From the IMG/VR virus record IMGVR_UViG_3300027872_000029, positions 1 through 21,555 of that record: 21,555 bases of DNA. One strand, written 5' to 3'. Positions within the stretch are counted from its first letter, which is position 1. Each line of letters begins with the position of its first letter. The notes below the pieces were generated by a model that was given only the letters and a program-made list of their open reading frames with translations, searched no databases and was not told where the DNA came from. A program made the position numbers and the translations under genes. This document shows positions 4,246 through 21,285 of the stretch, piece by piece. Origin of the DNA: a virus.

Positions 4246-4841
4246 TAGGCTATTGCTCCAGTGATAGCACTTGGGAGATCATATTCGTAATGATCCATGA
4301 ATATCCTAGTACCTGTAAAATCAATCAAATTACTCATGAAATGACTCAGGACGATAGGTCTATCTTGTAGTACAGTATGAGCCAAACCAGAAATCGTAAT
4401 GGTCTGCCAACCAGGGATAGTAACAATAGTAGTTGAACCCAAACTCGTACTTCCTGGGGTATCATTTAGCTCATTAACACCAACAATGAATGTCGATGAA
4501 GCATTGTTTAAAAAGATCCTAAAGTCTACCAGATTCAAAATCGCTCCAACAGGAAGTGGAATATGAATATTCCAATTAAAGTTAGAAGGAGAGGCACTTG
4601 GATGCAGCCCTAGACCAGTAACATCCCATCCAGTATCATTTATACCCACAACACCATCACTCCAATGAACACTTTTTCTAATATCTGTAAGAACGAAAAG
4701 TGGATCAGCAGACCAATCTCCTACAACAGTATCCATTCTCTCGTCAATATCTAACCTTAACTGACGAATCTCATCATCCGCAGTGTTGGCTGGATCAGAT
4801 CCCGCAGGAATAACATTAGACCATACATTCGAGAAAGCCAT
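4245..4841 (-). CDS. Putative tail fibre/appendage protein
   Basis: A 198-residue protein. I chose the ATG at 4841 because it has a strong AGGAG seven bases upstream. A longer frame from a GTG at 4904 exists, but it has no ribosome-binding site and its extra N-terminus would overlap the previous gene. The first 36 residues (MAFSNVWSNVIPAGSDPANT then DDEIRQLRLDIDERM) look like an N-terminal attachment segment of phage tail appendage proteins, ending in a short helix. The rest is beta-rich (IHIPLPVGAILNLVDFRIFL, GWQTITISGL) and could be a receptor-facing sandwich. The stop overlaps the next ATG. It is probably a virion component; a binding role is inference. Confidence 0.7.
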   Translation of the reverse strand: MAFSNVWSNVIPAGSDPANTADDEIRQLRLDIDERMDTVVGDWSADPLFVLTDIRKSVHWSDGVVGINDTGWDVTGLGLHPSASPSNFNWNIHIPLPVGAILNLVDFRIFLNNASSTFIVGVNELNDTPGSTSLGSTTIVTIPGWQTITISGLAHTVLQDRPIVLSHFMSNLIDFTGTRIFMDHYEYDLPSAITGAIA

Positions 4842-4893
4842 CTTTAATCTCCTAAATAGGCTCAGGACTACTGAAAGTAGGAACTTAAGAAAT

Positions 4894-5441: not shown

Positions 5442-6371
5442 TTAGCTCCCAAAGCCGGCAGTAAATCCAAGATCAAAACCAGAAAAAGGACTCAAAGGTG
5501 GTCCACACGCTTCTGTCCAATCAACACTAGCAACAGTAGGAAGGCCATTCTGACCGAATACCTGCTCTACTGTTATATTATCAAAGATGGAACCAGAGCT
5601 ACTATCTTTACGTACACCGAATCGCATATGGCCTGTATCATTGAAAGAATCTCTAGTACTAGGTGTCCCAGGGAGAATACCAGAAGTATCAGTCAACTCT
5701 ACTCCGGTAAGATGCGTAACTCTGGCCCCACCACCAAAAGGTTCTGTCCAGAAATCCATCAAATCGCCCGCAACATCCACACCCATTCTTAAACCTACAC
5801 CAACTGGATTTGGTAAATCAATAACAAATGGAGAATACATACCTGATGCAACTCCACCTATTCTATAGTTCATGGATATATTAATTAAAAGCGGAGAAGG
5901 ATCAACAGTCAAAAAGATCTCAAATGCATCCCCGTTTTGTTCCCACAGTCCACCAGGAGGGAAACCACTGGCAGGATTCTCATTAGCCCGAAATGTCATT
6001 CCTATCCCATTACCATCAAACGTAGCATTGATAATATCTAGATAATATGTAAAATTATCATGTACTACGTCCCGTCTACAGTAGACTCCATTCCCTCCGC
6101 CTCCTGTAATAGTTGCTATAACAAACTGATTACTTCCATTAACAAGAATAGAATCCGAAGCAGGACCAAGAACTGGACCGAACTGCCAATCTACAGTCCA
6201 AGCAAGAAATCCAATATATTCAGGATGTGTAAGAACATCAGCTAAATGCCTATTTGGTTCACCTTTCCGACTACCCATAAAGGTAGCAGCTATATCTGTA
6301 GCAGTATCCAAGGCAACAACAAGCCTTTGATTCTGTGCTATAGGTTCGTCACAAGGAGTATAATCTGTCAT
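5442..6371 (-). CDS. Putative lectin-like virion protein
   Basis: A 309-residue protein beginning at an ATG that overlaps the adaptor stop (ATGA). The sequence is almost all beta-strand with Gly/Asn-rich turns. The central part (about residues 95-275) has features of a concanavalin-A/LamG-like sandwich: DNFTYYLDIINATFDGNGIG, GDAFEIFLTVDPSP, MRFGVRKDSSSGSIFDNI. Cys98, Cys7 and Cys289 are isolated, and no catalytic acid pair of a glycosidase can be identified. Location after the adaptor and before two other appendage-like genes suggests a tail or receptor-binding component. The start has only a weak ribosome-binding site, consistent with coupling to the previous gene. Confidence 0.65.
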   Translation of the reverse strand: MTDYTPCDEPIAQNQRLVVALDTATDIAATFMGSRKGEPNRHLADVLTHPEYIGFLAWTVDWQFGPVLGPASDSILVNGSNQFVIATITGGGGNGVYCRRDVVHDNFTYYLDIINATFDGNGIGMTFRANENPASGFPPGGLWEQNGDAFEIFLTVDPSPLLINISMNYRIGGVASGMYSPFVIDLPNPVGVGLRMGVDVAGDLMDFWTEPFGGGARVTHLTGVELTDTSGILPGTPSTRDSFNDTGHMRFGVRKDSSSGSIFDNITVEQVFGQNGLPTVASVDWTEACGPPLSPFSGFDLGFTAGFGS

Positions 6372-16900: not shown

Positions 16901-17050
16901 TTAATTTAAGAACCATAGTAAGGGAAGTAGGATGTGTAACCTACGAATCCAATTAGCATGGGAATCTATTCCATTATATTCCTTATGACCACCACCGCCC
17001 GCAGGAGCGCCGCCTTCCCAAAAGAACGAATGTAGTGACATTCCTGGCAT
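16901..17050 (-). CDS. Small hypothetical protein
   Basis: A 49-residue protein starting at ATG 17050, nine bases after AGAGGA and two bases after the previous stop; it stops one base before the next ATG. It has a Gly-rich N-terminal third (FFWEGGAPAGGGGHKEYNG) and a C-terminal hydrophobic stretch (RRLHILLPLLWFLN) that could associate with membrane. Good ribosome-binding site and tight packing make it likely real; no family recognised. Confidence 0.55.
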   Translation of the reverse strand: MPGMSLHSFFWEGGAPAGGGGHKEYNGIDSHANWIRRLHILLPLLWFLN

Positions 17051-19915: not shown

Positions 19916-20120
19916 ATATAGGGTGTAGTCAAAGCTCATTATTTTATTAGGACCACCCCCACCTATGAATAAGCAGAAACTAATCTCGGATTTCGGAAAG
20001 CATAAACCATTACAATTCAGTAAAATTCGGATTACATTACGGTTACAGTACTAGCGCCGGGCTGTACTTTATGGTACTGTTCGTGGTCAATGGATTACGG
20101 ATTTCTACCTGTGAGGTGAA

Positions 20121-20327
20121 ATGTCAGCCCTACTTTTCCGCCCGGATCGTGCGCCAGAATGTGTCAACGGAAACAATCGTAGGTATTCCCTTTTTACCCA
20201 GGATCGCCCAGGATCGCAGTACCGGCTGATAGCTTTGGTTCTGTGCAGGACTCGGAAAGATGCCGAATTGTTTTTCCGCAGGCGTCTTGAGGCGGATTCT
20301 AGGAATTGTATTCGGCAGATTCGATAG
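20121..20327 (+). CDS. Small Arg-rich hypothetical protein
   Basis: A 68-residue frame, ATG at 20121 four bases after GAGG in the leader CTGTGAGGTGA, which is shared with the gene at 20948. The protein is Arg-rich (FRPDRAPECVNGNNRRYS, then LCRTRKDAELFFRRRLEAD) with three cysteines and is otherwise unrecognised. A perfect 10-base tandem repeat (20197-20216) lies within it. The opposite strand is also open here (20130-20399) but has no ribosome-binding site. The shared leader is the main support; the region could instead be a structured RNA. Confidence 0.45.
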   Translation: MSALLFRPDRAPECVNGNNRRYSLFTQDRPGSQYRLIALVLCRTRKDAELFFRRRLEADSRNCIRQIR

Positions 20328-20333
20328 GTCTAC

Positions 20334-20389
20334 GCGCAAGGGTCCGGTCTGTGTTGGGGACGATCTCGGTTCGACTCCGCCTTGCGCCA
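20334..20389 (+). ncRNA. tRNA-like fold with T-loop and CCA-like end
   Basis: GCGCAAGG (20334-20341) pairs perfectly over 8 bp with CCTTGCGC (20380-20387), followed by CA. Inside are GTCC (20342-20345) pairing with GGAC (20358-20361), and a T-arm-like segment: CGG, TTCGACT (20370-20376, matching the TTCRANY T-loop), CCG. It is 56 bases, has no D-arm and no convincing 5+7 anticodon arm, so it is not a normal tRNA. It begins six bases after the stop of the preceding frame. It may be a tRNA-like processing signal, a degenerate tRNA, or a copy of a host tRNA end used for integration. Confidence 0.45.
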
Positions 20390-20470
20390 TACGGTACACG
20401 GTTGTATATTGATTCTGTAGGGTAGCTCATTGAGACGTAGGATTCATCATTTTTCCCAGGGAGTAGAATC

Positions 20471-20887
20471 ATGGATTTCGGAACACAGAAAGCCTCGGCA
20501 GATCACAAGCTCGGAAGTGGTAAGAATTCCAAGGGTTTGCCGAAAATCACAGTGGGAGAAGCGCCATTCCCGATTTATTCTGATTTCAAGGAATTTGTCG
20601 GAGCGGCCGGATCGCCAGAATCTGCTCTTACTTTCGTAAATGCCGCAGTGAAAAGCGCGGCAGGCGTGAGGGTTAGAGAGTTTATCGGGGATTCCCCTGA
20701 GAACGGTACCACAGAGGATGAAATTATCCTCAAGGCGATAGAGGCAGGAAAAGCCTTTATTCCTGTAGTCAAGGCGTCAAATAAGGAAAAGGGCGTTACT
20801 CTCGATTCCTTGCTGGCGCAGGTCAGGATGGAAGGACCGGAAGCCGTACAGAAAAGGCTTTTGGAACTTGCTTCCAAGATGGGATAA
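20471..20887 (+). CDS. Hypothetical early protein
   Basis: A 138-residue protein, ATG at 20471 with AGGGAG seven bases upstream. It has a polar, Gly/Lys-rich N-terminus (residues 1-30), then a mostly helical body: YSDFKEFVGAAGSPESALTF, VNAAVKSAAGVRVREFIG, DEIILKAIEAGKAFIPVVKA, TLDSLLAQVRMEG and VQKRLLELASKMG at the end. It contains no membrane segment, no cysteine and no catalytic motif. It ends just before an intrinsic terminator. I do not recognise the family; an early regulatory or DNA-metabolism accessory protein is possible. Confidence 0.72.
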   Translation: MDFGTQKASADHKLGSGKNSKGLPKITVGEAPFPIYSDFKEFVGAAGSPESALTFVNAAVKSAAGVRVREFIGDSPENGTTEDEIILKAIEAGKAFIPVVKASNKEKGVTLDSLLAQVRMEGPEAVQKRLLELASKMG

Positions 20888-20899
20888 GTTGCATAGATT

Positions 20900-20934
20900 C
20901 CGGGGGCCTCAAAATCCCCGGTTTCTTTTCTTTA
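20900..20934 (+). terminator. Intrinsic terminator after the 138-residue gene
   Basis: CCGGGG (20900-20905) and CCCCGG (20916-20921) form a 6-bp G:C stem with a 10-base loop, followed by the T-rich run TTTCTTTTCTTT (20922-20933). It lies 13 bases after the stop codon. The T-run merges into the leader of the next gene. Confidence 0.72.
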
Positions 20935-20943
20935 TCTGTGAGG
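20927..20943 (+). repeat. Shared leader TTTCTTTATCTGTGAGG, copy 1
   Basis: The 17-base TTTCTTTATCTGTGAGG is found here and again, identically, at 21269-21285, each time after a terminator-like hairpin and just before an ATGATG start. A shorter relative, CTGTGAGGTGA, precedes the ATG at 20121. The GAGGTGAT part can pair with the 16S rRNA 3' end. Confidence 0.7.
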
Positions 20944-21237: not shown

Positions 21238-21277
21238 GGTCCTAGAGATGTGAGAGTTTCTAGGGCCATTTCTTTAT
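21238..21277 (+). terminator. Terminator-like hairpin after the 37-residue gene
   Basis: GGTCCTAGA (21238-21246) pairs with TCTAGGGCC (21259-21267) over 9 bp with one G-T wobble and a 12-base loop, followed by ATTTCTTTAT. The T-run is less pure than in the first hairpin, so termination may be partial. It runs directly into the second copy of the shared leader. Confidence 0.6.
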
Positions 21278-21285
21278 CTGTGAGG
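21269..21285 (+). repeat. Shared leader TTTCTTTATCTGTGAGG, copy 2
   Basis: Identical to the copy at 20927-20943, between the hairpin at 21238-21267 and the ATGATG at 21288-21293. Confidence 0.7.

Follow-up and report, generated by a model that had tools for sequence, protein, structure and literature searches.

Known tRNA-like elements and the phage element

The canonical bacterial tRNA (RF00005) shares an acceptor-like stem, a D-arm-like hairpin with GG, the T-loop TTCGACT and the order of the arms with the phage element described here, whereas the phage element has neither an anticodon arm nor an in-register CCA after the discriminator base. Moreover, the T-stem of the canonical tRNA is 5 bp and its acceptor/T helix 12 bp, against 3 bp and 11 bp in the phage element. 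mascRNA and menRNA are tRNA-like RNAs of human origin that undergo cleavage by RNase P and RNase Z. They carry an acceptor-/T-arm-like domain inside a longer transcript and a small D-arm with two guanines (PMC11693755), which is also the arrangement of the phage element. However, these RNAs are human, have an equivalent of the anticodon arm and are described as to their processing, while the phage element is known from sequence alone and its T-loop is not retained in relatives. Bacterial Y RNA YrlA also has a tRNA-like domain (PMC7790460), but the phage element has no Rfam match and no Rsr gene was noticed nearby.

It has been reported that model hairpins made of an acceptor stem and a T-arm are substrates of RNase P, that 12 bp separate the T-loop from the 5′ end in tRNA, and that phage RNAs such as the T4 gene 32 mRNA are known RNase P substrates (PMC11143913). 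In addition, integration into tRNA genes commonly leaves tRNA fragments (PMC9897764). Such fragments, left by integration or decay, resemble the phage element in being partial tRNA sequence beside mobile-element genes (PMC9897764), but they come from a tRNA of the host or a virus, whereas the phage element retains the 5′ acceptor strand; no real tRNA identical to it over more than about 20 bases was found. A literature search, largely of papers outside subscription, found no report of a tRNA-like element lacking the anticodon arm at a junction of phage genes.

Record and gene context

The window, that is, the whole stretch of DNA analysed, is a complete IMG/VR record of 21,555 bases and very likely a piece of a larger phage genome. 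Its minus strand carries podovirus-type genes (terminase, SU10-like portal and adaptor, capsid, holin), and from about 20.1 kb a run of small genes lies on the plus strand. As listed in Table 1, the element is located between two of these small genes. The last base of the upstream stop codon TAG is 20327, 6 bases 5′ of the element, and the next ATG, at 20471, comes 81 bases past 20389, just where the sequence-only reading had placed the element. There is no terminator-like site at 20334–20389, although the window has others at 20553, 20900 and 21238; an intrinsic terminator at the element was rejected, its GC-rich stem being without a T-run.

Table 1. Coordinates of the element, its parts, its neighbours and its counterparts in two related records
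Feature	Position	Strand	Basis and remarks
Upstream gene, 68 aa	20121..20327	+	ORFs; homologue in L056 and L058, homology judged by eye on translations
Whole tRNA-like element	20334..20389	+	Sequence; sole descriptor match of window; R1 match 20334–20388, 11.2 bits, E 0.62
Outer (acceptor-like) stem, 5′ strand, GCGCAAGG	20334..20341	+	8 perfect pairs with 20380–20387
D-arm-like inner hairpin	20342..20361	+	Sequence; R1 places it as D-stem
T-arm-like hairpin CGG-TTCGACT-CCG	20367..20379	+	Sequence; flush with outer stem on 3′ side
Outer (acceptor-like) stem, 3′ strand, CCTTGCGC, then CA	20380..20387	+	Pairs with 20334–20341
Downstream gene, 138 aa	20471..20887	+	ORFs; homologues in L056 53% and L058 55% identical
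L056 element GGAGCG ... CGCTCC-A	6711–6670	-	Starts 10 bases past stop TAA
L058 element GGGGCG ... CGCTCC-A	4826–4868		Starts 16 bases past stop TAA

Anatomy and folding of the element

The layout of the 56-base element is that of a tRNA minus the anticodon arm, and 42 real tRNA sequences from which this arm was removed are 53–58 nt long. The perfect 8-bp outer stem, the 4-bp inner hairpin and the consensus T-loop TTCGACT, all named in the sequence-only reading, are borne out. In the inner hairpin GTCC (20342–20345) pairs with GGAC (20358–20361) around a 12-nt loop that includes GG, and in the T-arm 3 bp (20367–20369/20377–20379) enclose TTCGACT at 20370–20376. The consensus T-loop TTCRANY closed by G-C is present as GTTCGACTC at 20369–20377, and for GGTTCGANTCC, allowing 0–1 mismatches, the T-arm site is the sole place in the window, with 0.77 expected. 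The acceptor and T helices, stacked coaxially, come to 8 + 3 = 11 bp. As for the CCA-like end, the letters are there, but a free tail is not: C20387 pairs with G20334, so that the overhang in the 8-bp register is CA only. This pairing of its first C puts the CCA out of register.

The fold that bears the T-loop has −20.2 kcal/mol, 1.3 kcal/mol less favourable than the minimum-energy fold (−21.5), in which the T-loop is partly paired with 20346–20349. Folding of the whole element against shuffles gave a z of −0.68, with 46 of 200 shuffles folding at least as well. A descriptor combining sequence and structure (T-loop GTTCRANYC whose own stem, 3 bp or longer, is flush with an outer one of 8 bp or more; both strands) matched one place in the window and occurred in 19 of 22,838 dinucleotide shuffles, or in 65 of 22,838 when 7 bp sufficed for the outer stem; like the structure-only counts given below, these shuffle figures are post hoc and carry no correction for the number of windows read beforehand. 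Descriptor matches in control loci resemble real tRNAs with 5-bp T-stems, as judged from coordinates and not one by one. When only the structure was sought and the T-loop letters were left free, the 143-nt intergenic stretch was equalled or surpassed by 67 of 1000 of its shuffles, and the L058 junction by 151 of 1000; in L056 the top flush structure, with 13 of 1000 shuffles as good, is not the junction element. The stem architecture by itself is common and unremarkable.

Elements at the same junction in related records

A search with the portal protein gave six records, one of which, of 19.4 kb, extends far past the terminase; its first 8.4 kb are called L056 here. The 133-aa protein of L056 led to a second junction record, L058, located in the 22-kb record G014. 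The junction is thus covered by three records, the window included, while the other five portal relatives end short of it. A structured element is present at the junction in all three covering records. Those of L056 and L058 are shorter and combine an outer stem of 6 bp with an inner hairpin; each lies after a stop codon and before the homologous downstream gene. Both relatives come from one metagenome id and are therefore not mutually independent.

Further relatives were sought by several routes. The window element found only stray matches in 'phages' (E about 7) and matches only at E 2–6 in 'plasmids', and the L058 element matched in 'phages' only at E 4. No junction relatives were gained with the 138-aa protein, the 68-aa protein or the terminase of the window, each used alone; the 291-aa protein gave short local matches only and no further relatives, and the 235-aa protein of L056 added none from phages. 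The alignment A1 recovered the same two records, L056 and L058, and the terminase alignment A2 the same two with two remote ones.

The L056 and L058 elements have GCGGTAGTCGGTAGGTCC and GCGCTCCAAT in common. AGTCGGTAG, which lies within GCGGTAGTCGGTAGGTCC, is also found in the D-arm of a tRNA-Phe (L037), and GTCGGTAG occurs in the first 30 bases of one of 47 distinct tRNAs. The T-loop consensus is lost in the relatives, which read GTCAAGT (L058) and GTCACAA (L056) at this position. In the test of whether D-loop guanines and T-loop are conserved, the consensus T-loop was thus gone in both, although GTCGGTAG was identical in the two. The tRNA hallmarks erode from record to record.

RNAalifold on L056 and L058 predicts 11 pairs in total, with an outer stem of 6 bp, an inner hairpin of 4 bp and no T-arm; folded alone, the L058 element forms a 6-bp stem and, flush with it, a hairpin of 5 bp. 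With the window included (MAFFT alignment of all three) only 6 pairs remain, and the outer stem is not among them. Between L056 and L058 the predicted pairs show three one-sided changes and no two-sided compensatory change; in the outer stem one A-U pair becomes G-U. The refuting check named in the sequence-only reading, a search for compensatory changes in related phages, therefore yields almost nothing in favour of the element, the consensus T-loop being lost as well.

Searches with tRNA models

ARAGORN found no tRNA or tmRNA genes in the window, in L046–L051 or in L052–L058. RF00005 of Rfam had no match to the window element at E up to 5 and 10, and Rfam gave nothing tRNA-like in the window, L056 or L058. 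A complete tRNA or tmRNA is rejected on these grounds. A permuted or split tRNA with 20420–20460 was also dropped, because the acceptor complement sits directly upstream and not downstream.

For a tRNA without its anticodon arm, a covariance model, R1, was built from 42 bacterial tRNAs with this arm removed and no phage sequence included. In the window, L056 and L058 together (40,318 bases, both strands) it gave six matches at E up to 10, led by window 16919–16975 (11.8 bits), the L058 junction (11.8) and the window element (11.2); the L056 element was absent from the matches of this 40-kb search at E up to 10. When 261 bases of L056 were searched, the best place was the homologous spot, with 5.7 bits. 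In the 22-kb G014 the L058 junction came first with 11.8 bits, followed by 7.2; this ranking comes from a scan of L065–L067, the rest of both relatives' records (33,301 bases), with the stretch of L058 included. That the top place of the L058 record falls within a 191-base stretch picked beforehand has a chance on the order of 1 in 1000 by our own arithmetic.

As controls, full tRNAs, mostly the building sequences of R1 itself, scored 38–50 bits; the best score was 11.6 bits in 90 kb from three other phage loci and 10.3 bits in the six portal relatives. Among more distant relatives, the R1 scan covered L014, L015 and L064, and the descriptors L014 and L015. The match at 16919–16975 on the minus strand was rejected, being within a short open frame and without the T-loop consensus. 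Since equal matches occur in this open frame and in other phages, scores of 11–12 bits arise by chance, and the R1 score of the element is weak and by itself not significant. The short open frame itself (about 49 aa, window 17050–16902, minus strand) lies in a gap otherwise unassigned and contains the best chance match of R1.

Origin of the element

The reading that we prefer, with a probability of about 0.42, is that the element is a decaying tRNA-derived remnant without an anticodon arm, located intergenically between a small gene and the 133–138-aa gene in this phage group. We infer its descent from a tRNA gene from three observations, namely its anatomy, its place at the same junction and the stem and hairpin in both covering relatives. 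An ancestral tRNA gene would have lost the anticodon arm, and the decaying element would have been retained at the gene junction. The rarity of the T-loop with its flush stem among shuffles, the length expected of an armless tRNA and the R1 ranking of the junctions in L058 and L056 favour this reading; the weak R1 scores, the lost T-loop consensus, the lack of two-sided changes and the negative ARAGORN and Rfam searches count against it. A serious rival, although somewhat unlikely, is that the element is instead a chance product, an ordinary GC-rich intergenic stem with a T-loop-like string, picked by a reader seeking such things. The shuffles that match the structure alone (67 and 151 of 1000 in the window and L058), the folding z of −0.68, the loss of the T-loop consensus in both relatives, the R1 matches of equal score elsewhere and the many windows read before this element was singled out all speak for chance; against it stand the 19 of 22,838 shuffles that combine sequence and structure and the homologous L058 junction, which independently tops the R1 matches of its record. 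Rather than a proven new RNA, the element is more probably an eroded tRNA remnant or a resemblance by chance.

A stem that is not derived from a tRNA at all is a less probable origin. The element would then be a cassette boundary or untranslated linker at a stop-codon-anchored junction where small genes swap, its hairpin stabilising transcript ends or spacing genes. L058 has a second, truncated copy of the junction about 460 bases upstream (33 bases, from the stop TAA through GGTAGTCGG, 91% identical), and this direct repeat (4348–4377/4807–4839) starts at two stop codons and brackets two small genes, so a gene-cassette boundary is possible there. The number of small genes 5′ of the element varies among the window, L056 and L058, and the joint fold of the two relatives, with its stem and inner hairpin but no T-arm, speaks for a linker. 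However, a single duplicated copy was seen, and the consensus T-loop with the flush T-arm of the window element is left unexplained. The sequence-only reading had offered another alternative, an attP core, i.e., the 3′ end of a host tRNA retained for site-specific integration, which is to be regarded as unlikely. Such fragments are commonly left by integration into tRNA genes (PMC9897764), up to 20 bases are common to the window element and a tRNA-Thr in L012 (by eye), and the 18-base GGTTCGACTCCGCCTTGC occurs at 12 places in genome_contigs, four of them in tRNAs found by ARAGORN (tRNA-Pro, tRNA-Thr); but the other eight are about what chance would give (7.5 expected, our arithmetic), and the exact 20-base 3′ end is absent from viral_contigs. 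Unlike those of a tRNA, the 5′ and 3′ halves of the T-stem do not match each other, and L056 and L058 differ within the T-loop region, where a core must match one host tRNA. The tyrosine-integrase domain PF00589, which does not cover serine recombinases, was found in none of the five records searched, all of them fragments. Moreover, the 5′ strand of the outer stem lies outside an attP core, and its pairing is left unexplained by a pure attP fragment, as the sequence-only reading had argued.

Possible function and meaning

For the tRNA-derived remnant preferred here, the 11-bp acceptor/T-arm helix, if transcribed, could serve as a cut site for RNase P or RNase Z, or alternatively shield the 3′ end of the upstream message, both of these suggestions being weaker than that of descent; equally, the element may be a relic with no RNA function. 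It is doubtful that an anticodon-less tRNA mimic of 43–56 nt at one operon junction signals to the host tRNA-maturation enzymes and has the early message cut between two genes, its T-arm drifting while acceptor stem and D-loop are conserved. The sequence-only label, tRNA-like but not a whole tRNA, describes the element fairly, while the idea of a mimic that splits the message is unsupported. If real and processed, the element would be a minimal phage tRNA mimic and a probe of the requirements of RNase P and RNase Z in vivo and of how phages make mRNA-processing signals out of tRNA genes that they have captured. If a relic, it would modestly illustrate how tRNAs decay in phage genomes and would warn against taking T-loop strings for tRNA elements.

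Other sequence features near the junction

In L058, positions 5459–5497 have a weak Rfam match to the plasmid antisense RNA ctRNA_p42d (29.2 bits, gathering threshold 50), which is probably a terminator hairpin after the 133-aa gene. In the window, TTTCTTTATCTGTGAGG is repeated exactly at 20927–20943 and 21269–21285, 3′ of two terminator-like hairpins and 5′ of small genes, and the related CTGTGAGGTGA lies at 20106–20123, 5′ of the 68-aa gene; TTTCTTTATCTGTGAGG and CTGTGAGGTGA look like a shared leader or ribosome-binding module.
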